Shown: positions 10,492 to 35,465 of the stretch, piece after piece
Layout of the letters: the number at the start of each line of letters is the position of its first letter
How positions within the stretch are numbered: position 1 is the first letter of the stretch
Assembly: GCF_001642955.1 (NCBI RefSeq)
Contig: NZ_LWSK01000055.1
Location: 1 to 39,224 of the forward strand
Origin: Rubripirellula obstinata
GTDB taxonomy: Bacteria; Planctomycetota; Planctomycetia; Pirellulales; Pirellulaceae
Reading direction: 5' to 3'
Length of the DNA: 39,224 nt
Program-made: the position numbers and the translations under genes
The notes under the pieces: model-generated
Told to the model about the DNA's origin: nothing
Database searches by the model: none
Seen by the model: only the letters and a program-made list of their open reading frames with translations

Positions 10492-11427
10492 ATGCCGAAT
10501 TCATACGCTACCAGCAATCAATCCACGAACCAGGTCAGCGGTCACGCAGATCGACCGGACGGATTATCTGTTTGCAATGCGTTTACGATTGACGTTGAAG
10601 ACTACTTCCAAGTGTCCGCGTTTGAACGGCAGGTTTCAAGGAAGAGATGGGACCAGTATGAGTGCCGTGTGGAAACCAACACCGACCGCATGCTGTCGCT
10701 GATGGATTCATGCGATATTCGAGGCACGTTCTTTGTTCTCGGCTGGGTGGCGCATCGCTTTCCAAAACTCGTTCGCCGCATTGCCAGAGCTGGACATGAA
10801 ATCGCCTCCCACGGCTACTGGCACCAATTGGTCTACGACCAGACGCCGGAGCAATTTGCAACGGATATCAACGATGCCCAGGAAGCCATCGTAAGCGCGT
10901 GCGGTGTCAAGCCAACCGCTTATCGCGCACCGAGCTTTTCGATTACTAAGAAGTCACTTTGGGCATTAGATATTTTGATCGAACAGGGTTTCACCACCGA
11001 CAGCAGCATCTTTCCCATCGCGGGCCATGATCGATACGGTGTACCGGACGCAAAAAAAGAAATTCATGATCGCGTCGCGGACCGTGGAAAACTGTTGGAG
11101 TTCCCGCCATCCGTGGCCAAGGTCGCTGGTGTCACCGTCCCCATCGGCGGCGGCTACTTCCGCCTCTTCCCCACCGCAATGACCACCGCCGCGATTCGAA
11201 GGATCCAGTCATCTGGCCGCCCCGCGATGTTCTACATCCACCCCTGGGAAATCGATCCCGACCAACCACGAATCAAAGGAGCCGGCACCAAAAGCCGCTT
11301 CCGCCACTACGTCAATCTAAAGCATACCGAGCGTAAGCTCATCGGACTGGTACAGTCTCATCGTTTTGGAACGATGGCGACGTCGATTGCGTCAGCGAAC
11401 CAGGCTCCTCTCCGAAAAGCTGGCTGA
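10492..11427 (+). CDS. XrtA/EPS-type polysaccharide deacetylase (NodB fold, DUF3473 type)
   Basis: This carbohydrate esterase-4-like deacetylase (311 aa) is expected to remove N-acetyl groups from a polysaccharide or its lipid-linked precursor. The NodB motifs are visible: F-T-I-D-V-E-D-Y-F (D34, E36, D37), S-H-G-Y-W-H (H107 and H111, metal ligands) and R-A-P-S-F-S-I (R145). A late F-Y-I-H-P-W-E motif is followed by a C-terminal R-F-R-H-Y tail. The short TIDVEDYF form, the HPWE motif and the tail are typical of the deacetylase associated with exosortase-A exopolysaccharide loci. There is no signal peptide, which also fits that group. It is the first plus-strand gene of the polysaccharide locus and is separated by 166 bp from the ligase. 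Confidence 0.9.
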   Translation: MPNSYATSNQSTNQVSGHADRPDGLSVCNAFTIDVEDYFQVSAFERQVSRKRWDQYECRVETNTDRMLSLMDSCDIRGTFFVLGWVAHRFPKLVRRIARAGHEIASHGYWHQLVYDQTPEQFATDINDAQEAIVSACGVKPTAYRAPSFSITKKSLWALDILIEQGFTTDSSIFPIAGHDRYGVPDAKKEIHDRVADRGKLLEFPPSVAKVAGVTVPIGGGYFRLFPTAMTTAAIRRIQSSGRPAMFYIHPWEIDPDQPRIKGAGTKSRFRHYVNLKHTERKLIGLVQSHRFGTMATSIASANQAPLRKAG

Positions 11428-11593: not shown

Positions 11594-12916
11594 ATGATCG
11601 GCGCGACACTTACATTTCTGGTGTTTGGACTTTGTTGCGTTGGCGCGATCATACGACCTTGGATCGGAGTAATCGCTCTTTATGGCTTTGCGATTATGGA
11701 TCCCGGTTGGAATTGGCGTTGGAGTCTTGATCGAGCATTCCCTTTTCAGCTCTATTTGGCTTTGTGCCTTTTTGCGGGTTGGATTGTTTGCGGATTGCCG
11801 GGCCTGAAAAGAGTTGTACAAAATAAGACAGGTCTGAGCTTTCTTTGGTTTTTCATCTTCATGGGCTGGGTCTCACACGGTCAATCTCTGGATCCTGAAA
11901 CTTCATCTTATTACCTCTACACGGTCTTCAAAATTGCTCTGGTCACGACCCTAGCGGTTGCCTTGATCGATACGCCCAAAAAGCTTTGGATCCTGTTGGT
12001 TGTTGCTGTCGTCACGCAAGGTTACAACGCCATGCAAATTAACCTTCAGTATTTTGAAGACGGTTTTTCAGCGTATTCAAGATCGGGTTGGGCCAGCGGA
12101 ACCAAGGGAGACAACAATGGTTACACGATCTTTACGATCCCTGTTCTGGCAATGTCGATTTCAATCGCACTAACTAACTTAGGGCCAAAGTTACGGCTTT
12201 TTTCGTTGGCCATCGCGGCATTGCAGATTCACCAAATACTACTACTCGAATCCAGAGGTGGGATGCTGGCCGTTTGTCTCTTATTCGCACTTGTGGCTTT
12301 CTTCGCTGAGAAGACTCGAAGCAACATTATTGGCATTGTTGCGATTGGCGTGGTCGCAATCGTTTTGGCTGGGCCCCCGGTCGTAAGAGAATTCTCATCT
12401 ATTTTTGCTGAGGCAGGAGAGCGAGACAATTCGGCCAACTCGCGGTTCAAGCTTTGGAAAGCCGGCGCACAAATCACGATAGAAAATCCTATCGTGGGTG
12501 TCGGTCCCTGGTGTGGCGAATTGCTGGTTCCGGACTATTACGAAGGGCCGATCGTCTCCACTTCGCAGCGGAAGGCACTGCACAATATCTTGTTCGAAAT
12601 TTCAACTGGATTCGGGATCCCTGCCACACTGGCTTACTTCGCTTTTTTCTGGATACCACTGCGATCTTCTCTTGGGCTAGTTCTAAGACGGCGCGAAGAG
12701 GATCCTTGGCTAAATGCGGCGTCTTTGGCGATCTGTGTCGGCATGCCAGCGTTCTTCCTTGCCAGCATGTTTAGCAGCGGTGCCATGCTAGAGACCGGGT
12801 ACTTACTTGCTGTTCTTGGATACGCCGTGAAAAACATATTGCATCAGCCCGCCGATTCGCCCCAGCTTAGCGAGTCGTGCGCCGAAGAACGGCAAGTCTA
12901 TCATGCAGCATCATGA
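11594..12916 (+). CDS. O-antigen ligase / polymerase-like protein (XrtA-associated type)
   Basis: This inner-membrane protein of about 440 aa has some ten or eleven transmembrane helices and belongs to the Wzy/WaaL superfamily. Visible family signatures are W-A-S-G-T-K-G-D-N-N-G (about residues 165-175), an E-S-R-G-G-M-L segment followed by a helix (about 217-225), and N-S-R-F-K-L-W-K-A-G in the large periplasmic loop, then H-N-I-L-F-E-I near residue 318. The pattern resembles the exosortase-A-system-associated O-glycosylation ligase. It probably joins lipid-linked repeat units to each other or to an acceptor in the periplasm. Ligase versus polymerase cannot be separated by sequence inspection. 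Its stop overlaps the next start as ATGA. Confidence 0.85.
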   Translation: MIGATLTFLVFGLCCVGAIIRPWIGVIALYGFAIMDPGWNWRWSLDRAFPFQLYLALCLFAGWIVCGLPGLKRVVQNKTGLSFLWFFIFMGWVSHGQSLDPETSSYYLYTVFKIALVTTLAVALIDTPKKLWILLVVAVVTQGYNAMQINLQYFEDGFSAYSRSGWASGTKGDNNGYTIFTIPVLAMSISIALTNLGPKLRLFSLAIAALQIHQILLLESRGGMLAVCLLFALVAFFAEKTRSNIIGIVAIGVVAIVLAGPPVVREFSSIFAEAGERDNSANSRFKLWKAGAQITIENPIVGVGPWCGELLVPDYYEGPIVSTSQRKALHNILFEISTGFGIPATLAYFAFFWIPLRSSLGLVLRRREEDPWLNAASLAICVGMPAFFLASMFSSGAMLETGYLLAVLGYAVKNILHQPADSPQLSESCAEERQVYHAAS

Positions 12917-14241
12917 CGATTCCTGAAGACTCGATGAATAGGACACCGACCATCGACCAACGAGAAGTCAAGGTGTTGTTCGTAGTGTTTAAGGCAATGC
13001 GCGGAGGTCATGTTCTTTCTGCTCTGTCCATTGCTCGTCAATTACGCAAGCGGGGAGTCACGCCAGTTTTTGCAGGAGCAGATGGAGAACTGGCAACGGA
13101 AATTGGTCAAGAAATGGGATTCGAGGAGGTCCAAATCCCTATCTACCACGGTACGCGCAATACATACTTCACTTGGGCGTCGTTAGCCGCAGTCAAGCGA
13201 CTTAGCAATCTTATTCGACAGCACAACATTGACCTAGTTCATGCATTCGATGCACGCTCCTACATGCATGCTTATCCAGCAAGCTTAATGGCGAACGTGC
13301 CAGTTGTGTGTACTCTTTGCGGCGGAGTCGACCCCTACTACAACCTTCCAGATGCTCCGAACCTTATTGTTTTCTCTGAGGAGCAAAAAATGCGGATGGT
13401 TAATCACTTCCGATGGAATGCTGATGCCGTCACCGTCATGCGTTCGCGTCTCGATACCAAAGAAATCCTCAACACGCAGTTTGCGTCAGAGGACGCCGAG
13501 GCACGTTTGGTAACGCAAAACCAACATGCCTTTACAATCATGATGATTAGCTCGTTTGATAGTTCCAAGATCGATTCCATTCACAGCGTGCTTGATGCAA
13601 TCGAAAAACTACTCAAAGAAGGACTTAACATTCAACTTGTAATGATCGGTGGTAAAGGCGATCTGTATCAACAAGCTAAGCTTCGTGGTGAATCGATTGG
13701 CGAACAATTCCCAGCATCAAAGATGCTGTTTACCGGGCCAGCGGCGAAGGCCTTTCGATACCTTCGATACGCCGATCTTGTGCTAGGGGTTGGCAGAAGT
13801 GCATTTGAGGGAATGGCTTTGGGACGCCCCACGATTGTCGTAGGAAAAAATGGATTCGCAGGCGTTGTCGAAGCGGATCAAGTGAGCGATCTCGCTTGGT
13901 ACAACTTTAGTGGACGTAATGTGGATTCAGTTCAAGGCTCGCATGTCCTGGCGTCTGAAATCAAGAAGTTGATGCTTAATCCCCAGCGGCGAAAAGAAAT
14001 CGGTGAATTTGGAAAACAATACATCGAAGAGAATATCGAAGTGAGCGTGGGCGTCCCAACGACACAGTTGGTATATCACCAGATTTTAGACCATCACAAT
14101 CGTCTTGCACGGTTTGCACGGTCGCGACAATGGATCAGTTTTTTGTGCCGGCTGGTTCCAGTAATACGTGACAACTCAATCCATACGATCAAGCGATTCC
14201 TGCGGATGGTTAGCACTATCAAACAGCCAAGGAAAAATTGA
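12913..14241 (+). CDS. Glycosyltransferase, GT4/GT-B fold
   Basis: This cytoplasmic GT-B glycosyltransferase of about 442 aa has an N-terminal Rossmann domain with G-G-H-V-L-S-A-L (near residue 33) and I-D-L-V-H-A-F-D-A-R (near 107). Its C-terminal donor-binding domain carries G-V-G-R-S-A-F-E-G-M-A-L-G-R-P near 300, the usual place of the E-x7-E-like motif of GT4. The upstream GTG (12877) lies well inside the ligase. The ATG at 12913, which forms an ATGA overlap with the ligase stop, is chosen. Donor sugar unknown. It lies immediately before the MurA homologue and may use or add the sugar made by that pair. Confidence 0.82.
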   Translation: MTIPEDSMNRTPTIDQREVKVLFVVFKAMRGGHVLSALSIARQLRKRGVTPVFAGADGELATEIGQEMGFEEVQIPIYHGTRNTYFTWASLAAVKRLSNLIRQHNIDLVHAFDARSYMHAYPASLMANVPVVCTLCGGVDPYYNLPDAPNLIVFSEEQKMRMVNHFRWNADAVTVMRSRLDTKEILNTQFASEDAEARLVTQNQHAFTIMMISSFDSSKIDSIHSVLDAIEKLLKEGLNIQLVMIGGKGDLYQQAKLRGESIGEQFPASKMLFTGPAAKAFRYLRYADLVLGVGRSAFEGMALGRPTIVVGKNGFAGVVEADQVSDLAWYNFSGRNVDSVQGSHVLASEIKKLMLNPQRRKEIGEFGKQYIEENIEVSVGVPTTQLVYHQILDHHNRLARFARSRQWISFLCRLVPVIRDNSIHTIKRFLRMVSTIKQPRKN

Positions 14242-14246
14242 TACAG

Positions 14247-15524
14247 ATGAGCGATGCCGATGCACCAACGTTAGAAGATTTTAGCTATCGAGTTCGTCCG
14301 TCGTGTTTGTCGGGTGAGGTCCACTTGAGCGGTGCGAAAAACAGCGTCCTGCGTCTGTTGGCTGCTTCGATCTTGACGTCCAGCAAGATCGATCTGCTTA
14401 ACTATCCCAATGAATTGTTAGATGCGAAAATTCACGTCGATATGCTCTCGTGCCTTGGTAAGACATCGAAGGTCTCCCCTGGGACGATCACAATGGAAGA
14501 ACATCAAGATCTGAGCACCAATCTTGATTGGGATGGAAGGTCGATTCGAAACACACTTTTGGTACTTGGTGCGCTGACCACACGATTCGGCGAGGGCAGA
14601 GTTCCGCTGCCAGGCGGATGCAATCTTGGCGACAGGAAGTATGACCTACACGAGATGTTATTGAGAAAGTTTGGAGCCAAGATTTGGACTCAGGATGGCT
14701 TCCTTTGTGCGAGTTCAAGTCAAAGACTGCAGGGTTGCGAAATTCATCTGCCGATTCGATCGACCGGAGCAACTGAGAACGCAATCATCTGTGGTACGCT
14801 CGCAAATGGAGTGACCAATGTATGGAATCCACATATCAGGCCCGAAATTTTGGACTTGGTTCGCTTCTTGCGATCGATGGGTGCTGAAATCACGGTCTAT
14901 GGACAAGAGCGAATTGAAATTGTTGGTCGAGAGCACCTTGGCGGAACCACTTATCGGGCACTCGCCGACAACATGGAGGCCTTGACTTGGTTGATCGCTG
15001 CGGTGATTACCGAGGGCACCATCGAGATCCACAATTTCCCGTACGGAGATCTTGAAATTCCTTTGATCCATCTTCGTGAAAGCGGAGCGAGGTTCTTTCG
15101 GGGTGATAGCAGCCTGATCGTCACTGGCGGTCGCTGCTATCCGTTCGAGATTAGTACGGGGCCTTATCCTGGTATCAATTCAGACATGCAACCACTGTTC
15201 GCCGTGTTCGGTGCAATGGCGCGAGGGCAAAGTGTGATTGTGGATTTACGATTTCCGGGGCGTTACGGATATGTCAAAGAGCTAGCGAAAATGGGCGTTC
15301 AATATCAGATTAAGGAAAACTTGCTGGTTATCGACGGAGGCAATCCGTTGCATGGACAGAACGTTCAAGCACTCGATTTGCGAGCCGGTATTGCTCTCAC
15401 GTTAGCCGGTCTCGCTGCAGCCAAAGGTGAAACGATCATCACCGATGCATGGCAGATTGAACGCGGCTACAACTCTTTGCTCACAAAGATAAAGGACCTC
15501 GGTGGCGACATCGACTATGCGTGA
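14247..15524 (+). CDS. murA: MurA homologue (UDP-GlcNAc enolpyruvyl transferase) within the EPS operon
   Basis: This EPSP-synthase/MurA-family protein (425 aa) should transfer enolpyruvate from PEP to the 3-OH of UDP-GlcNAc or a related UDP-sugar. The residues known to be essential in MurA are present: S-G-A-K-N (K31), I-R-N-T aligned with the MRAS arginine, P-G-G-C with the loop Cys at C125 followed by Arg at +5 (R130), S-D-M-Q-P (D313) and D-L-R-A-G (R379). The ending E-R-G-Y also matches. A TTG at 14238, 4 nt after AAGGA, is a possible alternative start. The position between a glycosyltransferase and a MurB homologue, with no other mur genes, suggests a dedicated polysaccharide role instead of cell-wall supply. 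Whether the genome has another copy cannot be seen. Confidence 0.9.
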   Translation: MSDADAPTLEDFSYRVRPSCLSGEVHLSGAKNSVLRLLAASILTSSKIDLLNYPNELLDAKIHVDMLSCLGKTSKVSPGTITMEEHQDLSTNLDWDGRSIRNTLLVLGALTTRFGEGRVPLPGGCNLGDRKYDLHEMLLRKFGAKIWTQDGFLCASSSQRLQGCEIHLPIRSTGATENAIICGTLANGVTNVWNPHIRPEILDLVRFLRSMGAEITVYGQERIEIVGREHLGGTTYRALADNMEALTWLIAAVITEGTIEIHNFPYGDLEIPLIHLRESGARFFRGDSSLIVTGGRCYPFEISTGPYPGINSDMQPLFAVFGAMARGQSVIVDLRFPGRYGYVKELAKMGVQYQIKENLLVIDGGNPLHGQNVQALDLRAGIALTLAGLAAAKGETIITDAWQIERGYNSLLTKIKDLGGDIDYA

Positions 15525-16485
15525 TTCGCTAAAGCAGTTAGCTCGTCGAAGCATCGGCGAAACGTCTTTCGATGCGCCGCTTCGCAATCACAGTTGGTGG
15601 GGAATCGGAGGGCCGGCTGACTTACTTGTGCAACCAACTTCGCTTGAACAGCTTTGTACGCTGATTAAAAGCTTGCACGAGTTCCAACTCCCTCACCTTT
15701 TTATCGGTGATGGCAGCAATCTTCTTTTTGACGATGTCGGTGTACGTGGAGTTGTCGTCAAGCTGGGGCGGAACTTTTCGAGTTACGAAATTTCAGGTCG
15801 CAAGATCACGGCACAATCCGGTGTGTTTGTTCCGCGGCTGATAAGGAACATCGGAAGGGCTGGGCTGACTGGATTGGAACACGCGATCGGAATTCCCGGC
15901 ACGCTTGGGGGCTTGGTACTTATGAATGGCGGTAGCTTGCGACAAGGAATTGGCACTCACGTTCAGCAAGTACACGCGATAAATAGTATGGGTGAAATGA
16001 TTCGCTTTGATCGCGATTCATGCCAGTTTTCGTATCGCAAATCAGCGTTGCAAAACGCGGGATTGGTCATCGCACGCGTTGATCTGCAGTGTTCGACTGG
16101 TGATCCCGTTCGGATCCAGCAACGCATGCGAGACATTTTGAGGTCACGGCGTAAAAAATTTCCGCGCCGGCATCCGAACTGCGGATCAGTATTCCTAAGC
16201 GACCCAAAAAACTACGACCAATTTGGTCCACCGGGAGCAATCATTGAGAGGTGTGGTCTTAAAACTCTTAGAATCGGCGATGCCATGATTCCGCAGCAGC
16301 ATGCAAACTTTATTGTCAATCTCGGTAGGGCGAGTTCGGCTGACGTGCTTTCGCTTGTTCGCACCGTCAGGCAAGATGTGTTTGATAAAACTGGTTTCCT
16401 GCTAAATTGCGAAGTCAGGTATGTCCAACCTGACGGACAACAAGTACCAGCCCACGAAGCGTGTGATGATCTGCAACTCACTTAG
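15517..16485 (+). CDS. murB: MurB homologue (UDP-N-acetylenolpyruvoylglucosamine reductase, type II-like)
   Basis: This FAD-dependent reductase (322 aa) converts the enolpyruvyl ether made by MurA into a D-lactyl ether, giving UDP-MurNAc or an analogue. FAD-domain motifs are clear: W-W-G-I-G-G-P-A, G-D-G-S-N-L-L-F and G-I-P-G-T-L-G-G. Active-site residues are present: Y-R-K-S (R174), C-G-S-V-F (S224, the proton donor) and C-E-V-R-Y near the end (E299). G-D-A-M-I-P-Q-Q-H-A-N-F-I-V-N matches the HANFIVN box. The absence of an E. coli-type long C-terminal insertion points to the type II class. The ATG at 15517 overlaps the MurA stop by 8 bp and is preferred to the GTG at 15502. The tight coupling implies a two-step module. 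Confidence 0.92.
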   Translation: MRDSLKQLARRSIGETSFDAPLRNHSWWGIGGPADLLVQPTSLEQLCTLIKSLHEFQLPHLFIGDGSNLLFDDVGVRGVVVKLGRNFSSYEISGRKITAQSGVFVPRLIRNIGRAGLTGLEHAIGIPGTLGGLVLMNGGSLRQGIGTHVQQVHAINSMGEMIRFDRDSCQFSYRKSALQNAGLVIARVDLQCSTGDPVRIQQRMRDILRSRRKKFPRRHPNCGSVFLSDPKNYDQFGPPGAIIERCGLKTLRIGDAMIPQQHANFIVNLGRASSADVLSLVRTVRQDVFDKTGFLLNCEVRYVQPDGQQVPAHEACDDLQLT

Positions 16486-17017
16486 GCAATGCCTGATCAT
16501 CGACTTGGTGCAATACGAGCCCGAGGTCACTGTGTTTCAGGTGCTCAGCCGAAGTCTGGTCGAAGGGAGAGTCTTGGCTGTCATCTTGATGAGAGTGTCG
16601 CAATACCTGCACTCGAAAAAGTTTTTCTGGAGGCTGTCTCCATACGCCAAACGCGCAAATGAAATCCTAACCGGCTTTGAGTGCAGTCTAAGTGCGACGG
16701 TTGGTAATGGGATCTTCATCGCACACACGCAGAACATTGTGATCGGCGACGGAGTCGTGATCGGCGATAGGGTCACTCTTTACAACGGCACGACGCTGGG
16801 TGCTGCGCGAAGGCAATCAAAATCGCAAACACCGCGTTACCCGGTGCTTGGAAACGAAGTCACCGTTTTTTCCGGAGCCAAGGTGCTTGACGCTATTAGC
16901 ATCGGTAACGGTGCAACGGTCGGGGCCAACTCGGTTGTCTTGCACGATGTCATGGACAATGAAGTGGTGGTGGGAAGCCCCGCGCGAGCAACGCGAAATA
17001 GCTCGGTAGATCAGTGA
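16466..17017 (+). CDS. CysE-like hexapeptide O-acetyltransferase
   Basis: This 183-aa acyltransferase of the serine-acetyltransferase (LbetaH) type has an N-terminal helical part, then hexapeptide repeats from about residue 80: I-F-I-A-H-T-Q-N-I-V-I-G-D (His in the active-site position), I-G-D-R-V-T-L-Y-N and I-G-N-G-A-T-V-G-A-N-S-V-V. It ends in a V-V-G-S-P-A-R loop. The acceptor is more likely a sugar hydroxyl or amine than serine, because all its neighbours handle polysaccharide. An ATG at 16421 would overlap MurB by 65 bp; the one at 16466 overlaps by 20 bp and is chosen. Its stop overlaps the flippase start as GTGA. Confidence 0.8.
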   Translation: MICNSLRQCLIIDLVQYEPEVTVFQVLSRSLVEGRVLAVILMRVSQYLHSKKFFWRLSPYAKRANEILTGFECSLSATVGNGIFIAHTQNIVIGDGVVIGDRVTLYNGTTLGAARRQSKSQTPRYPVLGNEVTVFSGAKVLDAISIGNGATVGANSVVLHDVMDNEVVVGSPARATRNSSVDQ

Positions 17018-18369
17018 ACAACGAACGGGATACCGAAGTTAAAAACGGTAGCTTCTTCGTTCAATCAGCGTCGACGTTCGCCACTCAAATCGTGCTGATG
17101 GTGATCAGCATTGTTGGAGGCGTGATCGTTGCTCGCGTACTCGGTCCGGAACTGAAGGGCAAAGCCACCCTAATTGAACTGCTGGCTCAAACGGTTTTCA
17201 TGGTTTGCAGCTTGGGCTTAGGAGCCGCATTTTCGTACTCCATTGCAAGGGCCAACGATGGTCGCTCGCAGATCATTTCCGCGGCGATCGTCATTGGCAC
17301 CTTCTTGTGGTGCGTCGGGATGGTGTTCTTTTGGTTTTCCTGGGAACTTCATCGTTCAATTTGGATCGGCATTGAAACCAAGTTTCTTGTCGCAGCTAGC
17401 CTGCTGTCGTTGTGTTATATCCTTACCAACTACGGTTCGCGAATTCTGATTGGCCTCGGCCGAATCGATCAGGTAAATGTCGGCGCGTTAGCAAAATCAC
17501 TCGTAAATATCTCAGTGATCGTGTTTGCTGTCTGGCTGTTCGATTTTGGGCTAGCGGGGCTTGTGATTGCCCTTCTTGTTTCATCTGTCGTACACATCAT
17601 GTCAGTAGGCTGGTTCTTGCGCGACAATTTACGGTTTGAATCATTCTGGTCGGCAGACTTCATTTCTCGCACCGCTGCCTACGGTCTGAAATCATACGCA
17701 TTGCTTCTGATTAATTTCCTGAACTACCGACTGGACTTGATTCTGCTGAAGTACTTTGACGGCGACCAAGCTGTTGGAATCTATTCTCTTGCTGTGGGAA
17801 TGGCAGAACTGATGTGGCTCGCACCCAATGCAGCAGTCGCACCTTTGTTTTCAAGTGTTGCCAAAAGTGATGCTGATAATCGTTCCGAAAGAACCCTTCA
17901 AACAACGCGATTCTCACTGTTCCTGCTACTCATTCTGTCTTCGCTTGCAGTGGTTGTCGGGCCGTATGCGATCAATCTTCTCTATGGAAAAGAATTTGAA
18001 GGTTCCTACTTTGCATTTGTTTCGCTTCTTCCAGGCGTTTGTCTTTTTCCGATCTTTAAACTGCTAACCGTGGACCTTGCTGCGCGTGGCCGGCCCGGCA
18101 TTGGGACGATCGCGTCCGCGCTGGCATTAGTGATCAACATCATTGCAAACTGCTATCTCATCCCCAAGTTTGGCTTTGTTGGGGCAGCACTAGCGACCAG
18201 CTTGTCTTACATCTGTATGTCAGCAGTCGTGTTAGCATATTTCGTCAGGCTGAATGACTACAAACTTGCTGAGATACTTTTTGTCAACAAAAGTGATCTC
18301 TCAAAAATGCTCGAGTTCAGCAGAGATTGCTCGAACCGTTTTTGCGACTTTATGCGTTCAGATCGGTAG
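17014..18369 (+). CDS. Wzx-type polysaccharide flippase (MATE/MOP superfamily)
   Basis: This 451-aa integral membrane protein has about 12 to 14 helices. The N-terminus is typical of oligosaccharide flippases: a short polar start, a QSASTFATQI amphipathic entry, and G-G-V-I-V-A-R-V-L-G-P-E-L-K-G in the first hairpin. A later Y-R-L-D-L-I-L-L-K-Y-F segment (about residue 235) also recurs in this family. It should translocate lipid-linked repeat units across the inner membrane. The start is a GTG overlapping the acetyltransferase stop. The next gene begins 50 bp later, one of the few gaps in block A. Confidence 0.88.
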   Translation: MNNERDTEVKNGSFFVQSASTFATQIVLMVISIVGGVIVARVLGPELKGKATLIELLAQTVFMVCSLGLGAAFSYSIARANDGRSQIISAAIVIGTFLWCVGMVFFWFSWELHRSIWIGIETKFLVAASLLSLCYILTNYGSRILIGLGRIDQVNVGALAKSLVNISVIVFAVWLFDFGLAGLVIALLVSSVVHIMSVGWFLRDNLRFESFWSADFISRTAAYGLKSYALLLINFLNYRLDLILLKYFDGDQAVGIYSLAVGMAELMWLAPNAAVAPLFSSVAKSDADNRSERTLQTTRFSLFLLLILSSLAVVVGPYAINLLYGKEFEGSYFAFVSLLPGVCLFPIFKLLTVDLAARGRPGIGTIASALALVINIIANCYLIPKFGFVGAALATSLSYICMSAVVLAYFVRLNDYKLAEILFVNKSDLSKMLEFSRDCSNRFCDFMRSDR

Positions 18370-18419
18370 ACCAACATCATTGTCCGTATGTACCAATACT
18401 CGTCGCAGAAGATGGATCT

Positions 18420-20036
18420 ATGAACCCGCGATTTGACTGGATCGCCAAGCCACAGACTGTGGTTTTGTTTTGCTTGTTGGTCGTGATTTATGCAAACGCA
18501 TCGCGATTCGGATTTCAAGAGAAGGAACCAACAACGGAAGAGAATTCTAAGTTCGTTCCGTTTACTGGAACTCGCATTGGTTTTACCGAGCAACCGTTCC
18601 ATTGGGATGAAGGAACAGGTGATGGAGTCGATGGTGCGACAAAGGAGTTCTACAATCGCGTCGCCAGCTTGGCATGGGAAAATTTGTTTGGCGACTGGCG
18701 AGATCGAGAAGGTGTTTCGCAGGGCAGTGAGCCTTTTGCAACCATGTTCGTAAAAGACACCGATGAATTGAAAGTTGTTCAGTGGGATGTAACAGAGCTG
18801 GTAAGCCAGTGGTTGTCAGGATCTGCCAACAAGGGATTCTATTTAAGATCCAATGACCGATGCAAAATAGATTTTCGCAGTCGCGAATCAGACAAACCAG
18901 AACAGTATCCTGAACTCGTTTTGTTGTTCGACGACGAATCGGTTGTTGTCAAAGCGGTGGCCGATACCCACCTGGGTTACGCAACAAAACACTCGCTTGG
19001 GAAAGAATTTGTGTTACGGGTGTCTGATAAAACGCCAGTGCTCGTTCGATTCCCAACCGAACAATTCGCTGGACGACGACTCAAACAGGCTCAACTGCGA
19101 ATGCATTCTTTCGCCCAATACGGCTCGGGTGACATCAATGTGTTTGCATGTGATCAGGGAGAAGCTTTGCCGTCGAAGTCCTTCAAAGCTGGGATCGCTT
19201 CCCAGTACTTGCTTGACGCCGGCATCGATCAGAGCGAAAGCGTGTTGTTTGCAACTGGATTCGAAACACCAAACTGGAAGTCCGAATGGAGCAACCATCT
19301 GCGCACGCAATCGATCGACATCGTTAGCAAAGATGACGAGCTGAAGTTCTCCAACGCGTTTGGGAAGTCGTTAAGAGTCGAAATCCGAAAAGGCAAGCTA
19401 AGCGCGATGAGTAGTTTCTTTGCGTTTGAGAATCAGGGTTTCGATGAACCAGAAGAAATCTACTTTCGCTATTATCTCAGACTCGCAAATGACTGGAACC
19501 AAACAATCCAGAATGGAAAGTTGCCGGGAATCGCGGGTACTTACGGCAAAGCCGGTTGGGGTGGGCGGAAGAGCGATGGTAGCAATGGATGGTCGGCAAG
19601 AGGGTTCTTTATGCAAACGATTCCGAAAGGAAATCCGTTAGCCGGACGAACACCTATTGGGACCTACTGTTATCACGCCGATATGGAGAGCCCCTACGGC
19701 GATGGTTGGGTTTGGTCTCGGAATTTCCTCGGCTACCTCGCTCGGAATCATTGGTACTGCATCGAGCATCATTTACGACTGAACACGCCTGGCGAGAATG
19801 ACGGCCTGATTGAAGGTTGGGTCGATGGTCAATTAGCGTTTCAGAAAAATGACATTCGTTTTCGAGACAGCGAGTTGCTGAAAATCGAAAATGTATGGAT
19901 GGATGTTTATCACGGCGGAACAAAGTCGTCTCCATATGATCAGCACCTATTCATCGACAATGTTGTCATTGCCAGAGATTACATCGGTCCGGTCGGCACA
20001 CATGAAGTGCCCGCAGAAGTACGCTCCAATGAATAA
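18420..20036 (+). CDS. Secreted DNRLRE-type plus PL14-like polysaccharide lyase
   Basis: This exported protein (538 aa) has a signal peptide or anchor at residues about 15-33. Residues about 60-250 contain DNRLRE-like beta-sandwich sequence (V-Q-W-D-V-T-E-L-V-S-Q-W-L-S-G, then NKGFYLRS) in two partial copies. Residues about 285-530 resemble the jelly-roll lyases of family PL14 (alginate/glucuronan lyases): G-K-L-P-G with K367, W-S-A-R with S392 and R394, and T-Y-C-Y-H with Y416 and Y418. From memory these match the Lys, Ser-x-Arg and Tyr-x-Tyr set of PL14. Uronate-polymer cleavage during export or release is the likely role. The ATG at 18420 is chosen because the frame upstream overlaps the flippase. 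Confidence 0.75.
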   Translation: MNPRFDWIAKPQTVVLFCLLVVIYANASRFGFQEKEPTTEENSKFVPFTGTRIGFTEQPFHWDEGTGDGVDGATKEFYNRVASLAWENLFGDWRDREGVSQGSEPFATMFVKDTDELKVVQWDVTELVSQWLSGSANKGFYLRSNDRCKIDFRSRESDKPEQYPELVLLFDDESVVVKAVADTHLGYATKHSLGKEFVLRVSDKTPVLVRFPTEQFAGRRLKQAQLRMHSFAQYGSGDINVFACDQGEALPSKSFKAGIASQYLLDAGIDQSESVLFATGFETPNWKSEWSNHLRTQSIDIVSKDDELKFSNAFGKSLRVEIRKGKLSAMSSFFAFENQGFDEPEEIYFRYYLRLANDWNQTIQNGKLPGIAGTYGKAGWGGRKSDGSNGWSARGFFMQTIPKGNPLAGRTPIGTYCYHADMESPYGDGWVWSRNFLGYLARNHWYCIEHHLRLNTPGENDGLIEGWVDGQLAFQKNDIRFRDSELLKIENVWMDVYHGGTKSSPYDQHLFIDNVVIARDYIGPVGTHEVPAEVRSNE

Positions 20037-21309
20037 ATCCGAATCAGATGCAAAAACGTTTGTCTGGGATCGGCGATGTCTTCAAGTGCTCGCGATCGTG
20101 TTCGTGTTGGCGTTTGGGGTTCGCCTTGGACTTGTCTGGCAGTTTGTTGGATTCGATTCCCCGCCGGATGCGACGTCAGCACCGGACCAACTGAACTACG
20201 AAGAAAGTGCATTTCAGCTTTCCATTGGAAACGGATACTCAAACAAAGATGGTGATCCGACGCTTCACCGAATGCCCGGCACGTCCTTCACGCTCTTGCC
20301 AGTCTACCTGTTTTTTGGCCGAAGTTACGCGGCGGCCAGAGTCTGGTTTTGCATTCTATCGGCGCTTGCATGTGTTGGTACGGCATGGGTTGCCACCCAA
20401 TCGTTTGGTAGGCAAGTGGGACTGGTCGCTGGGCTGCTGATTTCCGTTTATCCCAATCACGCCTACGGACCTTTGCACTTTGTCAGCGAAGTGCCGTTTA
20501 GTCTTTTGGTAATTCTGGCTACCGGAACAACGGTGCTTGCGTTTCGCGCAGAGAAAAGTCTTGCAGAAAAAAGTGTTTACGTGTCCATCATCGCAGGCAT
20601 TCTTTGGGGCTGCACCGCACTGGTTCGCCCGAACATTTTGCTCTGTTTTCCTTTGCTAATTGCATGCGCATCATGGTCGAGCGATAGGCTTCGCAGAGGA
20701 CTGTATTTGTCAGTGTGTATGACGGCAGCCACCTGCTTGCTAGTTGGGCTGTGGGCAGGAAGAAACTACATGGTATTTGGCAGACCAACGCTGGCAGCGG
20801 TCGGTGCATACACGCTTTGGGGTGCCAACAATGAACGAGTGCTTAGCGAGAGTCCTGGAAGTTGGATCAAAACATCGGACTTGGTGGATCAGGATCATCC
20901 GATCAATGGAGACGAACTGCAGCGAATGGATCAAGCCAATCAATACGCCAAAGATTTCTTTGCCAAGCATCTGGCTGATCTTCCGTACCTTACAACAATG
21001 AAGTTGTATCGATTGCTAGACCCGTGGGTCGAAACCGATAATATCTTGGTGCAATGGAGTTTTGGAATTGCTTGGCTAGCGACGATACCTTTTATAATAT
21101 TTGGTGTTTTCAGATCGCTGTCCGTTTCAAAAGTTGACGCGGTCTACTTGCTTCTACCGCTGGCAGCACTTGTATTGACCGCAGCCATTTTCTACGGTTC
21201 GCCAAGGTTTCGTGATTCGGTTTCATCGGTCTACATGGTGTTTGCCGCCTTAGGATTTCGAGACATAGCCCGTCAACTCGACTTGCAGAAGTTGATCCAA
21301 TCACGATGA
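20029..21309 (+). CDS. GT39/ArnT-like membrane glycosyltransferase
   Basis: This polytopic protein (426 aa, about ten helices) has the GT-C fold of polyprenyl-phosphate-sugar-dependent glycosyltransferases. After the first helix comes a periplasmic loop with D-Q-L-N-Y-E-E-S-A-F (acidic residues near 57-65). Then H-R-M-P-G-T-S-F and the segment Y-P-N-H-A-Y-G-P-L-H-F-V-S-E-V-P match the pattern of the family's first and third loops. It probably adds a sugar on the periplasmic side from a lipid-phosphate donor. The ATG at 20029 overlaps the lyase stop by 8 bp. The open frame upstream to 19891 lies in the lyase and is ignored. Its stop overlaps the next gene as ATGA. Confidence 0.8.
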   Translation: MNKSESDAKTFVWDRRCLQVLAIVFVLAFGVRLGLVWQFVGFDSPPDATSAPDQLNYEESAFQLSIGNGYSNKDGDPTLHRMPGTSFTLLPVYLFFGRSYAAARVWFCILSALACVGTAWVATQSFGRQVGLVAGLLISVYPNHAYGPLHFVSEVPFSLLVILATGTTVLAFRAEKSLAEKSVYVSIIAGILWGCTALVRPNILLCFPLLIACASWSSDRLRRGLYLSVCMTAATCLLVGLWAGRNYMVFGRPTLAAVGAYTLWGANNERVLSESPGSWIKTSDLVDQDHPINGDELQRMDQANQYAKDFFAKHLADLPYLTTMKLYRLLDPWVETDNILVQWSFGIAWLATIPFIIFGVFRSLSVSKVDAVYLLLPLAALVLTAAIFYGSPRFRDSVSSVYMVFAALGFRDIARQLDLQKLIQSR

Positions 21310-22478
21310 CGATCTGCTTGTTGATGCTTGGCTTGGCTGCTTGGCCTTGGCTTGGCTACCCAGTTTGGCTTTGGTTGCTTGGACAAATCAGTCCCAAAGA
21401 TCTAAAACAACGACAAGAAGCTTTTGACAATGATTCGCTTCCATCGGTCAGCGTTGTCGTTAGCGCCTTTAACGAAGCCGACGTGATCAAAGAGAAGTTG
21501 CAGAACATTTTGGCCCTGGATTATCCCAAATCCAAGATTGACTGCCTGGTGATTTCCGATGCCTCGGATGATGGTACCGACGAAATCGTTGCTGCTTTCG
21601 ACGCGCCCAATATACGACTTGCTCGCACTGCACAACGACGAGGCAAGTCAGCGGGACTGACAACGTTTGTTCCTGAATGCCAACAGGACATTGTTGTCTT
21701 TACGGATGCAAACGCAATCTTCCAAAGCGATGCGATACAACACTTGGTAAAACACTTTTCGGATTCGAAGGTCGGCTACGTTGTCGGCCAACAAAAGTAT
21801 GTCCAGAGTGCTGGGGATCAGGTCAGCGAGTCGGAAGGTTTGTACTGGAAGTATGAAACAATGCTGAAACGCTGGGAGAGTCGTGTTGATTCGGTGGTCG
21901 GAGGTGATGGCGCGATCTACGCGATTCGCCGAGACCTTTTTAAGCCACTTCGCGATGATGACATCAATGACTTTACCAATCCCCTGCAAATCATTCAAAA
22001 CGGTTATCGAGGCGTCTACGAACCCAACGCAATTTGCTTTGAACACGTTGCCGGTTCGTTCGGCGGCGAGTATCAACGGAAAGTACGCATCGTCAATCGT
22101 AGTTTTCGTGCGCTGGTTCGCGAGCGAGGTGCAGCGAATCCTTTTTGCACCGGTTTGTTTGCGTTTCACTTGGTCAGTCATAAAGTACTGCGCTGGTTTA
22201 CCGCATTTTTTCTACTGGCAGCTTGGGTGATCAGCGGATCGTACGCACTGGCTGGCCAGAACACGATTGCCGTTATCCTGTTCGCAGCTCAAACCTTCTT
22301 CTACGCCGTGGCGTCGATGGGACTGGTAGAACGCCTGCGGCAGTATCGATTGATTTCAGTTCCGTTCTATTTCTGCCTGGGGAACCTGGCTTCTGCAAAC
22401 GGGATTTTGCTTTATTGTATCGGCCGTAAGTTTACAACTTGGAATCCAGACCGTGTGCGAACTGAGGTTCAGCAATGA
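21306..22478 (+). CDS. GT2 glycosyltransferase, processive-like, with C-terminal membrane helices
   Basis: This 390-aa protein has an N-terminal membrane helix (residues 2-26), a GT-A domain and three or four C-terminal helices (about residues 285-375). GT2 motifs are visible: S-V-V-V-S-A-F-N-E, then D-A-S-D-D-G-T, R-R-G-K-S-A-G, F-T-D-A-N-A in the DxD position and G-G-D-G-A-I-Y. R-K-V-R-I-V-N-R-S takes the place of the Q-x-x-R-W region. The layout resembles hyaluronan/cellulose-synthase-like or dolichyl-phosphate-sugar enzymes, so it may polymerise or make a polyprenyl-linked sugar. The ATG overlaps the previous stop (ATGA), and the next gene starts the same way. Confidence 0.85.
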   Translation: MTICLLMLGLAAWPWLGYPVWLWLLGQISPKDLKQRQEAFDNDSLPSVSVVVSAFNEADVIKEKLQNILALDYPKSKIDCLVISDASDDGTDEIVAAFDAPNIRLARTAQRRGKSAGLTTFVPECQQDIVVFTDANAIFQSDAIQHLVKHFSDSKVGYVVGQQKYVQSAGDQVSESEGLYWKYETMLKRWESRVDSVVGGDGAIYAIRRDLFKPLRDDDINDFTNPLQIIQNGYRGVYEPNAICFEHVAGSFGGEYQRKVRIVNRSFRALVRERGAANPFCTGLFAFHLVSHKVLRWFTAFFLLAAWVISGSYALAGQNTIAVILFAAQTFFYAVASMGLVERLRQYRLISVPFYFCLGNLASANGILLYCIGRKFTTWNPDRVRTEVQQ

Positions 22479-23434
22479 AGCTGTCGGTCGTGATTCCTTG
22501 TTTGAATGAGGAAGCTTTCATAGGCGAGTGCATCCGGTCAGTACAAAACGCTTTGGGGACGAATTCCGAAGTCGAGATTGTTGTGGTTGATGCTGGATCG
22601 AGCGATCAAACAACGGTGATCGCAGAATCGTTTGGCGTCCACGTTGTGAATCATCCGCGATCAACGATTGCAGCCCAGCGAAACGCCGGTGTCCGCGTTT
22701 CATCGGGGGAAGTCATTGCGTTTTTAGACGCAGACTGCACCGTGGCGGAGGGCTGGGTGCAAAACGGCTTAGAATTGTTTCGCAACCCAGAAGTGCTGGG
22801 CGGTGGATGCCCTCCCTCGGTCCCTTCCCAAGATACGACGTGGGTTCAAAGAGGTTGGAGCTTTCTGAAACGCAAGCGTCGGCCCGGTCGCATGTCCGTT
22901 CGCTGGATTCCGTCGGCCAATGTCTGGGTTCGGCGCTGGGTGTTTGAACAAATCGGTGGCTTTAACGAGCATCTCGAAACATGCGAGGACGTCGATCTTG
23001 GTTTCAAGGTTTCTGATCTCGGACCGATGATCTCCGATCCGTCTCTTTGCGTCTATCATCACCGAGAGCCACGAACTCTACTGGAATTTTTTCGCAAGGA
23101 GCTTTGGCATGGCAAGAATAGCTTTTCGGGGATCAGTTCGGGTCGATGGACGTGGTCAGAACTGCCCAGTCTTATCGCTCCGATCTATTTTCTGCTTGGA
23201 CTTGGATGGATCATCATCAGCGGTGTGTTGCTTGCTTGCGACCAAGCAACACTATCGGATCTGGTACTAGCAATCGTGTTTTTCCTCGCACTTCCATTCG
23301 CGTATACACTGCGTGCGGTCGCAACCAAGGGGAATGTCCATCAGTTCTTTCAGTACATTTTGATCTACATCGTCTATTTCTCAGCCCGTTCGGTGTCCAT
23401 GATTTCGTCAGTCATAGCAAGCATTCGTGAATAG
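22475..23434 (+). CDS. GT2 glycosyltransferase with C-terminal membrane helices
   Basis: This 319-aa GT-A enzyme has S-V-V-I-P-C-L-N-E-E (residues about 4-13), D-A-G-S-S-D-Q-T, A-A-Q-R-N-A-G and F-L-D-A-D-C (the DxD), followed by a late C-E-D-V-D-L-G acceptor-site motif (near residue 170). Two or three hydrophobic segments close the protein (about 235-315). It is likely an inner-membrane-associated transferase acting on a lipid carrier. The start ATG overlaps the preceding stop. It is the last gene of block A: a gap full of hairpins follows, so the transcript may end here. Confidence 0.85.
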   Translation: MKLSVVIPCLNEEAFIGECIRSVQNALGTNSEVEIVVVDAGSSDQTTVIAESFGVHVVNHPRSTIAAQRNAGVRVSSGEVIAFLDADCTVAEGWVQNGLELFRNPEVLGGGCPPSVPSQDTTWVQRGWSFLKRKRRPGRMSVRWIPSANVWVRRWVFEQIGGFNEHLETCEDVDLGFKVSDLGPMISDPSLCVYHHREPRTLLEFFRKELWHGKNSFSGISSGRWTWSELPSLIAPIYFLLGLGWIIISGVLLACDQATLSDLVLAIVFFLALPFAYTLRAVATKGNVHQFFQYILIYIVYFSARSVSMISSVIASIRE

Positions 23435-23458
23435 TCCCGGAGGGACGGAAGCTCTCTG

Positions 23459-23478
23459 CCGGGGATGTAAATCCCCGG
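23459..23478. repeat. Small GC-rich hairpin after block A
   Basis: Arms ccgggga (23459-23465) and tccccgg (23472-23478) flank a 6-nt loop, 25 bp after the last stop of block A. There is no T-run directly after. It may contribute to termination together with the longer hairpin at 23513-23565. Confidence 0.5.
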
Positions 23479-23694: not shown

Positions 23695-24687
23695 ATGCAA
23701 TACTGTTTGACAATTGATACTGAAGAGGAATGGAATTGGGCTGACGGGTTTCCGGTTCACTCCACGGGTGTCGAAAACATCTCGCGGCTGGGCCGGTTTG
23801 CTGGGCTATGTGAGCGGTACGGTGCGAAGACGACTTACCTTGTCAATTATGCTGTCTTGGATCATGGTTCCTCTTGCGATGTGATTCAACAATTCAGCGA
23901 GAGCGATCTTGTTGAAATTGGCATGCATGTTCATCCTTGGACAACGCCACCCTACCACTCGACTGATAACACAACACGAACATCATTTCTTGAAAACTTG
24001 TCGGTGGATCACGCGGTTGAGAAACTGAATTCTACTTATCAGCTTCATCGAAAACGAGGTTTCCATCCACGCAGCTATCGTGGTGGTCGATACTCGTCAG
24101 GCAAGACGACTCTGCAGTTTTTGAGCCAGAATGGTTTCTGTGTTGATTCATCGGTTTGTCCGTTTTCGACGTGGCCTGATGATGGAGCACCGAACTATTC
24201 TGACCGAAACCCTGACCCGAATGTGCTTGTCCAGCATGATGCAAACTCACCCAACCTGTGGAGCATTCCGTTGACGCGAATCTATTCGCGCCAGCCGTTT
24301 GATACATGGAATAAGATCCATCACCTGATTGAAAACACTTCGCTATCACGGTTACGTTTGGTCGGCGTCATGGAACGGCTCAATCTGGTTCGAAGGATCT
24401 GGCTGAACTTTGAGACTGAAAAAGTTGGTGCGATGTTGTGGACAATTCGCAATGCGCATCGACTGGGGCTACCGTACCTATGCTTTACGGTGCATAGTTC
24501 TTCGCTATCGGTGGGGCCAAGTCCGTATGCCCGAACCGATGATCAGGTGGACCGGATTTTTGATGGCGTGGAGCAAGTTTTGAAATGCCTCGCCAGCGAT
24601 CCGCGTTATCAACCAGCGACCCTTGCAGAGATTGCAGAAAATCTTGACGCTACACAGCCTCGACAAGCCAACCACAAGATCAATTGA
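23695..24687 (+). CDS. Polysaccharide deacetylase-like protein, second type (NodB fold)
   Basis: This 330-aa protein starts T-I-D-T-E-E-E-W (catalytic-type acidic residues within the first dozen positions). It then has G-M-H-V-H-P-W-T-T-P-P (about residues 80-90) in the metal-site region, S-Y-R-G-G-R-Y-S-S-G (about 122-131) and V-H-S-S-S-L near the end. The H-x-H-P-W form differs from the S-H-G-Y-W-H form of the deacetylase at 10492, so the two enzymes should act on different sugars or stages. There is no signal peptide. The open frame begins at 23563, but that part translates the repeat; the ATG at 23695 gives a natural NodB start. It is the first gene of block B, with 11 nt before the next ATG. 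Confidence 0.82.
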   Translation: MQYCLTIDTEEEWNWADGFPVHSTGVENISRLGRFAGLCERYGAKTTYLVNYAVLDHGSSCDVIQQFSESDLVEIGMHVHPWTTPPYHSTDNTTRTSFLENLSVDHAVEKLNSTYQLHRKRGFHPRSYRGGRYSSGKTTLQFLSQNGFCVDSSVCPFSTWPDDGAPNYSDRNPDPNVLVQHDANSPNLWSIPLTRIYSRQPFDTWNKIHHLIENTSLSRLRLVGVMERLNLVRRIWLNFETEKVGAMLWTIRNAHRLGLPYLCFTVHSSSLSVGPSPYARTDDQVDRIFDGVEQVLKCLASDPRYQPATLAEIAENLDATQPRQANHKIN

Positions 24688-24698
24688 CGGTTAGACAA

Positions 24699-26579
24699 AT
24701 GAAAGTTCTTGGAATTAGCCCGCTTGATAAGGATGTGACTGCGTCCTTCGTGGAAGACGGCAAGATCCTATTCGCTTGCGGTGAAGAACGTCTGTCACGC
24801 GTGAAGTTGCAAGACGGGTTTCCGATGCGAGCGATTCGTTTGGGTTTGCAGCGAACAGGATGGTCGTTGGATGAAATTGATACGGTCGCCTATTCATTTT
24901 TCGACGGTGATCGCGAGCACGAACTCATGCGTGCGGCCATGCAAGAAGATGAAACTTTTCATCGCGATAACGCGACGGCCGAATCGCTGGCGAAGCTCAA
25001 GCAAGTTCGCCGAGCGTACAAAGCAATACCCAAAGATCCGATTCCTGGGTTGGACGCTTCTGATGAGTTCGCTCCACGCAAGTCTTTCGCAAAGCGAGCA
25101 CTGTATGAATTGGCGGGATGGTCACCAAGCATGGATCGGCGATTGCACCGCAAGTGCTTTCGGCAATGGGTTGCTCTTGCAACCGCAGACCATCAAATCA
25201 GGACGCAGCAATTGCATGCAGGGCTCGACGAACTTGGCCTGCGTGACAAACTGCAACGGTTCAATCACCACCTTTGTCATGCGGCCAACGCGTACTACTA
25301 CTCGGGATACGAATCGGCGCTTGCAATGTCGTTTGACGGATACGGCAGTGGAAACTGCGGGGCCGTTTACGAGGCGACACCGACAGGATTGGTGAAGTTA
25401 CACGAATTTCGTTTTCCCAATTCGCTAGGACAATTCTACGAGTACGTCACTTCAGCACTTGGATTTCGACCGGGCCGTCACGAAGGGAAGATTGTCGGCT
25501 TGGCGGCCTATGGTGATCCGGAAGTGCTTGGCGACGTCCTGCGGGAGCGCTTCACGGGAATGGAGCAAGGCGACATCCGCATGCGGGCAGCCACCAATTA
25601 CCACTTTGCCAGGCTACTGTCGCAAAACTTTTCCAAACGAGACATGGCCGCGGCTTTTCAAACGGTGTTGGAAGAAGTCGTTCAACAGGTTGCCGACTAT
25701 TGGGTCAACAAAACAGGCCTGCGAAATGTTTGCCTGTCGGGAGGCGTCAATGCAAACGTCAAACTGAATCAACGGATTCACGAATGCGATGGAGTCGATT
25801 CAGTGTTCGTCTATCCCAACATGGGTGATGGTGGCTGCGGAACCGGTGCTGCACTGTTGGCGTTGCCATCCGAGTGTCGTCCAAAGACGGCGCTGCGTCA
25901 TGCGTATCTTGGGCCGAACTATTCATCGGATGAAATTCGGGCCGCGTTGGACGAAGAAAAACTAGCCTACGAAGAACATGCTGACGTCGAACCCGCGATT
26001 GCGGATTTGTTGGTCAACAAGCGCATCGTGGCACGTTTCAACGGATCGATGGAATACGGTCCTCGGGCACTCGGCAATCGATCGATCTTGTATCCTGCCC
26101 AGGATCCTGAGGTCAATTTGTGGCTCAATCATCAATTGGGGCGAACCGAGTTCATGCCGTTCGCACCCGCGGCGCTTGCCGAAGAAGCATCGCGGCTGTT
26201 TAAGAATATGCAGGGCTGCGAGAAAACGGCGCAGTTCATGACCGTCACCTTTGACTGCACCGATGATATGAAACGCATGTGCCCAGCGGCGGTTCACATT
26301 GACGGAACCGCGCGTCCTCAATTGGTCAGTGCGGAAACGAATGAGAGCTTCTATCGCATCCTGAAGTCGTACTTTGAAAAGTCAGGGATCCCGTCGGTCA
26401 TCAACACCAGCTTTAATATGCACGAGGAACCAATCGTCTGTTCGCCGCAAGATGCAGTCCGAGCGTTTCTGGATGGGCGTATCGATTATTTGGCGATTGG
26501 TCCATTCATTGTGCCGCATCCCAAATTGATCGAGATCGAAAGCGAACGACGGTCAGACACTGCGGCGGCATCGGTCTAA
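24699..26579 (+). CDS. Carbamoyltransferase (NodU/TobZ family)
   Basis: This 626-aa O-carbamoyltransferase is expected to move a carbamoyl group from carbamoyl phosphate to a sugar hydroxyl by way of carbamoyl-adenylate. The N-terminal Kae1-like domain holds H-H-L-C-H-A-A-N-A (metal site), F-D-G-Y-G-S-G-N, H-E-G-K-I-V-G-L-A-A-Y-G, L-S-G-G-V-N-A-N and G-D-G-G-C-G-T-G. The C-terminal YrdC-like domain holds M-E-Y-G-P-R-A-L-G-N-R-S and I-N-T-S-F-N-M-H-E-E-P. Full length for the family. A TTG at 24684 overlaps the previous stop; the ATG at 24699, which opens K-V-L-G-I-S, is the more usual family start. It implies that the polysaccharide is carbamoylated. Confidence 0.93.
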   Translation: MKVLGISPLDKDVTASFVEDGKILFACGEERLSRVKLQDGFPMRAIRLGLQRTGWSLDEIDTVAYSFFDGDREHELMRAAMQEDETFHRDNATAESLAKLKQVRRAYKAIPKDPIPGLDASDEFAPRKSFAKRALYELAGWSPSMDRRLHRKCFRQWVALATADHQIRTQQLHAGLDELGLRDKLQRFNHHLCHAANAYYYSGYESALAMSFDGYGSGNCGAVYEATPTGLVKLHEFRFPNSLGQFYEYVTSALGFRPGRHEGKIVGLAAYGDPEVLGDVLRERFTGMEQGDIRMRAATNYHFARLLSQNFSKRDMAAAFQTVLEEVVQQVADYWVNKTGLRNVCLSGGVNANVKLNQRIHECDGVDSVFVYPNMGDGGCGTGAALLALPSECRPKTALRHAYLGPNYSSDEIRAALDEEKLAYEEHADVEPAIADLLVNKRIVARFNGSMEYGPRALGNRSILYPAQDPEVNLWLNHQLGRTEFMPFAPAALAEEASRLFKNMQGCEKTAQFMTVTFDCTDDMKRMCPAAVHIDGTARPQLVSAETNESFYRILKSYFEKSGIPSVINTSFNMHEEPIVCSPQDAVRAFLDGRIDYLAIGPFIVPHPKLIEIESERRSDTAAASV

Positions 26580-35391: not shown

Positions 35392-35465
35392 TACCCCCGA
35401 GAGGATTCGAACCTCCGACCTGCTCGTTAGGAATGAGCTGCTCTGTCCAGCTGAGCTACAGGGGC
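35392..35465 (-). tRNA. tRNA-Arg (anticodon CCT)
   Basis: A complete 74-nt cloverleaf can be drawn on the minus strand: acceptor GCCCCTG with CGGGGGT (two G-U pairs), D-arm GCTC/GAGC, anticodon loop TTCCTAA, variable AGGTC and T-arm GGAGG-TTCGAAT-CCTCT, with discriminator A. The anticodon CCT is complementary to 35429-35431, reading AGG codons. The last anticodon-stem pair (31-39) is A-C, a mismatch. CCA is not encoded. It sits between the end of the polysaccharide locus and thiE, the type of site where islands often border, but no attachment repeat was found. Confidence 0.93.

Follow-up and report, generated by a model that had tools for sequence, protein, structure and literature searches.

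A MurA-MurB gene pair in an exopolysaccharide locus of Rubripirellula obstinata that probably serves a surface polysaccharide

A gene pair in the planctomycete Rubripirellula obstinata is likely to be a dedicated, horizontally spread duplicate of MurA and MurB that serves a surface polysaccharide, and it probably makes a muramic-acid-like sugar for the polymer of the locus in which it resides. MurA and MurB are the enzymes that normally start cell-wall synthesis. The pair was examined in a 39,224-nucleotide stretch of DNA (hereafter the window) that constitutes one complete contig. Our reading is built from enzyme family, catalytic residues, clade membership and gene linkage, together with the finding of no other intact MurA or MurB in the genome. 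The initial annotation of this DNA had suggested that a dedicated pair makes UDP-MurNAc, or another lactyl ether, for a secreted polymer, and the comparisons described below (trees, linkage and paralogy) support that suggestion.

Results

The pair lies within an XrtA-type locus

Pfam and NCBIfam searches confirm that the pair sits inside an XrtA/PEP-CTERM-type exopolysaccharide (EPS) locus. The genes assigned are as follows.

10492..11427, plus strand: XrtA-system polysaccharide deacetylase (TIGR03006, 363 bits, cut-off 276)
11594..12916, plus strand: Wzy/O-antigen ligase-like polymerase (PF04932, 69.4 bits)
12877..14241, plus strand: GT4 glycosyltransferase directly upstream of murA (PF13439, 41.8 bits)
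14247..15524, plus strand: EPS-type MurA, predicted UDP-sugar enolpyruvyl transferase (NF006873, EPS clade, catalytic residues)
15517..16485, plus strand: EPS-type MurB, predicted FAD enolpyruvyl reductase (NF010480, TIGR00179, EPS MurB clade; Arg, Ser and Glu kept)
16421..17017, plus strand: hexapeptide acetyltransferase, EpsC/CysE-like (PF00132; NF041874 131 bits, under the cut-off of 150)
17014..18369, plus strand: MOP-superfamily (Wzx-type) flippase (PF01943, 53.8 bits; PF03023, 38.7 bits)
18327..20036, plus strand: polysaccharide lyase 14 domain with DNRLRE/disaggregatase-type repeat (PF21294, PF06848, NF033679)
21306..22478, plus strand: GT2 glycosyltransferase (PF00535, 82.3 bits)
22475..23434, plus strand: GT2 glycosyltransferase (PF00535, 103.5 bits)
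24684..26579, plus strand: NodU-type carbamoyltransferase inside the EPS locus
29213..31632, plus strand: two GT4 glycosyltransferases (29213..30424 and 30421..31632; PF00534)
32337..34277, plus strand: asparagine-synthase-like amidotransferase of XrtA loci (TIGR03108, 607.9 bits, under the cut-off of 816.9)
34232..35314, plus strand: FemAB-family XrtA-associated protein (TIGR03019, 328.8 bits, cut-off 260)

The flanks are those that had been described from the letters alone, with a GT4 on one side and an acetyltransferase followed by a flippase on the other, and the locus holds two hexapeptide acetyltransferases. The large window ORFs scanned with Pfam and/or NCBIfam models include no murC, murD, murE, murF, murG, mraY or ddl, which bears out the earlier remark that none of these genes is near. 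Homologues of the GT4 upstream of murA likewise adjoin murA in two other loci (63% in L094 and 41% in L042), and this GT4 is our candidate for transferring the lactyl sugar.

The MurA reading frame begins at an ATG at 14247 (or an alternative TTG at 14238) and ends at 15524, and that of MurB begins at an ATG at 15517 (or an alternative GTG at 15502) and ends at 16485. With the MurB ATG, the two genes overlap by 8 bp, as first noted. MurA exceeds the cut-off of NF006873, a broader NCBIfam subfamily model (367.3 bits; cut-off 297), and does not reach that of TIGR01072, the stricter murA equivalog (351.5 bits; cut-off 392.7). MurB passes both NF010480 (285.1 bits; cut-off 259) and TIGR00179 (196.2 bits; cut-off 144.5). 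At these scores, the homology of both proteins to the MurA and MurB families is far beyond chance. Counting from each ATG, MurA retains K31, N32, R101, C125, R130, D313, D377, R379 and R406, and MurB retains R174, S224 and E299; all catalytic residues named initially (K31, C125, R130, D313 and R379 of MurA, and the three of MurB) are among them.

Three further features of the locus are recorded here as side observations. The amidotransferase and FemAB genes (32337-35314, plus strand) might, speculatively, modify the carboxylate of a lactyl sugar; such genes also give their names to families of XrtA loci in general. An Acido-Lenti-1 RNA match lies at 23433-23478 on the minus strand (39.6 bits versus a gathering score of 37), and a tRNA gene at 35392-35465, also on the minus strand, borders the EPS locus on its downstream side.

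EPS-type MurA proteins form a separate clade

A scan of a genome-contig collection with the window MurA yielded 59 loci, 55 of which (L042-L096) encode proteins with 56-78% identity to the window MurA; the other four (L097-L100) fall at 32-35%. The 55 loci come from Planctomycetota, Pseudomonadota, Bacteroidota, Balneolota, Thermodesulfobacteriota, Armatimonadota and Actinomycetota. Such a scan reaches close relatives only, and therefore the EPS-type MurA clade may be wider. Among the best 30 of 140 matches in plasmid records, only seven fall at 55-62% identity, and a search of E. coli genomes with a Photobacterium copy found no member of the clade.

In a quick maximum-likelihood tree comprising 30 of the 57 EPS-type rows and 47 of the 48 ordinary rows, a single branch (SH-aLRT 100, length 2.1) splits the two types. 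The tree leaves out L016, whose length is odd, and the program flagged many rows for unusual composition and one row (L126) for being long. The window MurA groups with that of Rhodopirellula sallentina (support 100) and not with ordinary MurA (branch support 100). Thus, the expectation that the pair would form an EPS-associated clade of its own is borne out for MurA. Judged from these sequences, the module is cross-phylum and horizontally spread. Only the planctomycete framing of the initial annotation was mistaken: the module crosses phyla and is seldom seen in planctomycetes (1 of 392 genomes of the phylum and 3 of 241 of the family).

Linkage of murA, murB and polysaccharide genes

A MurB-like gene is present in 49 of the 55 EPS-type murA loci (E up to 1e-5), on the same strand in 48 of these 49, with a gap of less than 300 bp in 14 loci and of 328-3,475 bp in the other 35. 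No MurB-like gene was seen in the remaining six loci (L042, L049, L061, L072, L082 and L091). For comparison, none of 27 ordinary planctomycete murA loci, whose flanks are shorter than those of the EPS loci, has a MurB-like gene within 1.5 kb.

Clustering the ORFs from the 55 loci and the window gave groups for a flippase (33 of 56 loci), a hexapeptide acetyltransferase (cluster c3, 29 loci), a protein of about 385 amino acids that matches no Pfam family (28 loci) and a GT2 (19 loci); the ORF picking dropped MurA itself in L044, L082 and L085. An uncontrolled census covered the four ORFs closest to MurA (MurA and MurB excluded) in each of 30 loci out of the 55. Its 120 ORFs include 22 matches to Polysacc_synt, 16 to Hexapep, 5 to Poly_export, 5 to Wzz and 4 to Wzy_C.

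Gene order varies among carriers. Most Bacteroidota loci have the order murA, acetyltransferase, flippase, murB, the window has GT4, murA, murB, acetyltransferase, flippase, and another member of the window's family (genome G402) has murB, murA, acetyltransferase, a 497-amino-acid protein and a GT2. Two copies of the G402 module, on contigs C29 and C70 (loci L116 and L117), are 99.95% identical over 10.4 kb and represent either a genuine duplication or an overlap left in the assembly. An Agrobacterium plasmid carries the pair among EPS genes. In a Qingshengfaniella plasmid its neighbours are one GT2 and genes for choline, proline and transport functions, which do not make up an EPS locus. In genome G196, both MurBs are away from MurA. 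The window pair itself has its murB linked to murA among polysaccharide genes.

These neighbourhoods bear on two other roles. Extra MurA copies are common in bacteria, so the window protein could be a spare, serving as a fosfomycin-insensitive or stress backup; we regard this as extremely improbable, given that the fosfomycin-target position C125 is still a cysteine and that the gene does not move by itself but in company with MurB and a flippase. There is only a very slight chance that the product is a small molecule or a derivative of a nucleotide, in the manner of NikO of nikkomycin synthesis (4fqd). NikO is a MurA-type enzyme with another acceptor and matches at E 9e-33, but the matches to structures of ordinary MurA are far stronger (E about 1e-73) and the neighbouring genes are polysaccharide genes. 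According to the accessible part of the source (PMC6801904), NikO is a MurA relative recruited outside the wall, as we propose for the pair; unlike the window MurA, to which it is distant in sequence, it acts on UMP.

Most of the other carriers searched also possess ordinary MurA

An NF006873 search that covered 31 carrier genomes out of the 55 recovered the EPS-type MurA in all 31 (about 360-410 bits) and an ordinary MurA as well in 29, as one match of 477-618 bits in 28 genomes and in two pieces in G222. The two carriers in which this search found no ordinary MurA are G199, a metagenome-assembled genome, and G226 (R. sallentina). A MurB model was searched against 21 genomes, including that of the window; outside the EPS locus it finds a MurB-like match scoring 90 bits or more in 18 of them and none in G200, G212 and G224. 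In a quick MurB tree of 47 rows (three of which are identical copies from G402), the 29 EPS rows form one group with a support of 85, below the program's star, and the window MurB falls in a 17-row subgroup with a support of 100. The catalytic Arg, Ser and Glu are kept in all 29 EPS rows. Among the 18 remaining rows, the Ser is conserved in 16 and so is the Glu; a protein on contig C13 of the window's genome and its R. sallentina counterpart are the exceptions.

No second intact pair was found in the window's genome

The R. obstinata assembly (6.58 Mb, 307 contigs) is 99.99% complete and 2.07% contaminated. Contamination is an unlikely source of the window contig, because most genes around the pair best match Rhodopirellula sallentina. 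A protein search of the genome with the window MurA matches only itself, and a PF00275 superfamily search (E up to 10) adds one protein, which is AroA (TIGR01356, 384.4 bits; cut-off 287). The window MurB finds itself and one relative of 32% on C13 (66646-67536). This MurB-like protein lacks the catalytic Ser and Glu, and its gene adjoins, by eye, a likely FtsQ gene; kept across the genus, it is possibly a structural or regulatory remnant. Four proteins carry the Mur-ligase domain PF08245, and their classification (one MurE-like at 136 bits against a cut-off of 373, FolC, and two PgsB beside PgsC) reveals no MurC, MurD or MurF. The two PgsB-PgsC poly-gamma-glutamate synthase pairs lie on C112 (L137:7646-9484) and C210 (L138:7436-9180).

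The initial annotation had reasoned that the idea of a dedicated pair fails if this is the only murA/murB in the genome. It is literally the only MurA found and, because the second MurB lacks its catalytic Ser and Glu, in effect the only MurB found. We do not accept the reasoning, because relatives have neither the pair nor ordinary MurA. The same observation would favour a reading in which the pair is the organism's own cell-wall MurA and MurB displaced into an EPS locus, which we judge highly improbable. Set against it are the separate sequence clade, the ordinary MurA in 29 of 31 other carriers, the same-genus relatives, in which the order and family searches show neither type of MurA, and the failure to find MurC, MurD or MurF in the genome. 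On these grounds a dedicated pair remains the preferred reading.

A rare gain in the host lineage

In the window's order, a MurA over the cut-off is present in 30 of 196 genomes, that of the window included, and in none of the 34 other sampled genomes of its family. A search of 241 family genomes with the window MurA gives six matches at E up to 1e-5, of which only three are close carriers: the window's genome, G402 and G363 (R. sallentina, identical to locus L094 over 14,688 bp). The other three have 24-30% identity at about 35 bits. Among 392 genomes of the phylum, the window's alone matches at E up to 1e-95, and this scarcity indicates that the pair is a rare gain here. Same-genus relatives have neither EPS-type nor ordinary MurA in the family and order searches.

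The state of MurB in these lineages was compared in MurB-like ORFs picked from match lists rather than at random. The catalytic Ser/Cys or Glu is kept in none of 20 sequences consisting of 18 same-genus ORFs, the C13 protein and its R. sallentina counterpart. All 14 ORFs from MurA-bearing groups keep both residues; a MurA over the cut-off is present in 13 of the genomes concerned, and the fourteenth, G065 (77% complete), shows none itself, with other members of its family having one. Both residues are also kept in 6 of 23 ORFs from genomes without a MurA over the cut-off, which shows that outside the genus MurB has not decayed throughout. Across the order, a MurB match was observed in 94 of 97 genomes (over the cut-off in 76, weak only in G057 and G084), and a single EPSP-synthase-family match in 36 of 57 (in G052 this match is the MurA, and in G026 a 30-bit fragment). 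The accessible part of the report by Jeske et al. (PMC4432640) describes MurNAc, diaminopimelate and peptidoglycan genes in planctomycetes including Rhodopirellula baltica, which stands against a lineage-wide loss.

Discussion

Proposed function and acceptor sugar

Conserved catalysis together with a linked MurB leads us to propose a two-step reaction, in which MurA would transfer an enolpyruvyl group to a UDP-sugar and MurB would reduce the product to the lactyl ether. One of the glycosyltransferases in the locus, most probably the GT4 next to the pair, would then use the resulting UDP-activated acidic sugar, after which the adjacent MOP flippase would flip the repeat unit and the Wzy-like protein would polymerise it. 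The activities, the product, the acting glycosyltransferase and the presence of the sugar in the polymer are inferred.

The window MurA shares with cell-wall MurA (EC 2.5.1.7) its fold family and the catalytic Lys, Asn, Arg, Cys and Asp, and it passes NF006873; it differs in its identity of about 35%, its clade, its score below TIGR01072, its EPS context and a set of distinctive alignment columns. Likewise, the window MurB resembles cell-wall MurB (UDP-MurNAc dehydrogenase) in passing both family models and in its Arg, Ser and Glu, but groups with the MurBs of EPS loci rather than with the dcw-side MurB of its own genome. UDP-MurNAc itself is the likeliest product, with a chance that seems to us about even; otherwise a close lactyl relative would be made.

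A more tentative version of the same role, which is a sub-case of the preferred explanation and overlaps it in probability, has MurA act on an acceptor other than UDP-GlcNAc, yielding a different UDP-lactyl sugar, such as one derived from UDP-GalNAc or from an acidic UDP-sugar. It draws on 42 columns that are at least 90% conserved in the 57 EPS-type MurAs and shared by at most 10% of 47 ordinary ones. R335 is present in 57 of 57 EPS-type proteins, where ordinary MurA has V (29), I (12), M (5) or L (1); T173 replaces a V found in 46 ordinary proteins; R198 and P195-H196 replace E and A-A, respectively, in 47 of 47; and K131-Y132 are also clade-specific. In an alignment to E. cloacae MurA (1ejc), R335 corresponds to I327, T173 to V163, R198 to E188, P195-H196 to A185-A186 and K131-Y132 to P121-V122. 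We take positions 121, 122, 163 and 327 of the E. cloacae enzyme to touch UDP-GlcNAc, and clade-specific changes at such sugar-site positions may indicate another acceptor. However, no cluster of nucleotide-sugar genes is present across the loci, the commonest (an epimerase, c5) occurring in 24 of 56, and the lack of a universal sugar-nucleotide gene therefore favours an acceptor common to every cell, such as UDP-GlcNAc. Genes for sulfation, GDP-fucose or UDP-glucuronate were considered as clues to the acceptor and set aside, being present in only part of the loci.

A still more specific scenario, which we consider rather unlikely, is that a mobile, cross-phylum module whose MurA, with its invariant Arg at the sugar-site position, was re-tuned to an undescribed UDP-lactyl sugar other than MurNAc was gained after canonical UDP-MurNAc synthesis had been lost. 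If that were true, any lactyl sugar of a cell of the window's lineage would belong to the secreted polymer.

Relation to known polysaccharides and significance

In chemical analysis, muramic acid serves as a marker of peptidoglycan. The occurrence of MurNAc in surface glycans is established chemistry in the portions of the reports available: it is described in the capsule of Vibrio vulnificus ATCC 27562 (PMC7247339), and in the O-polysaccharides of Yersinia ruckeri and Proteus penneri and the lipooligosaccharide of Psychrobacter arcticus (PMC4515632). Other reported lactyl sugars include 4-O-(1-carboxyethyl)-mannose (PMC8466920, accessible part). The MurNAc polysaccharides of these four species would represent the expected product class of the preferred reading, and the accessible parts of PMC7247339 and PMC4515632 do not name a MurA/MurB paralogue as the source. 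Our search of the literature, mainly open-access, found no paper describing a MurA/MurB pair in a polysaccharide locus.

If a dedicated pair is indeed at work, it would provide a genetic basis for the few known MurNAc-containing capsules and O-chains, as well as marker genes for lactyl-ether sugars, for whose biosynthesis we found no description in the literature searched. It would also counsel caution before concluding from muramic acid that a cell wall is present, which is a live issue in planctomycetes.
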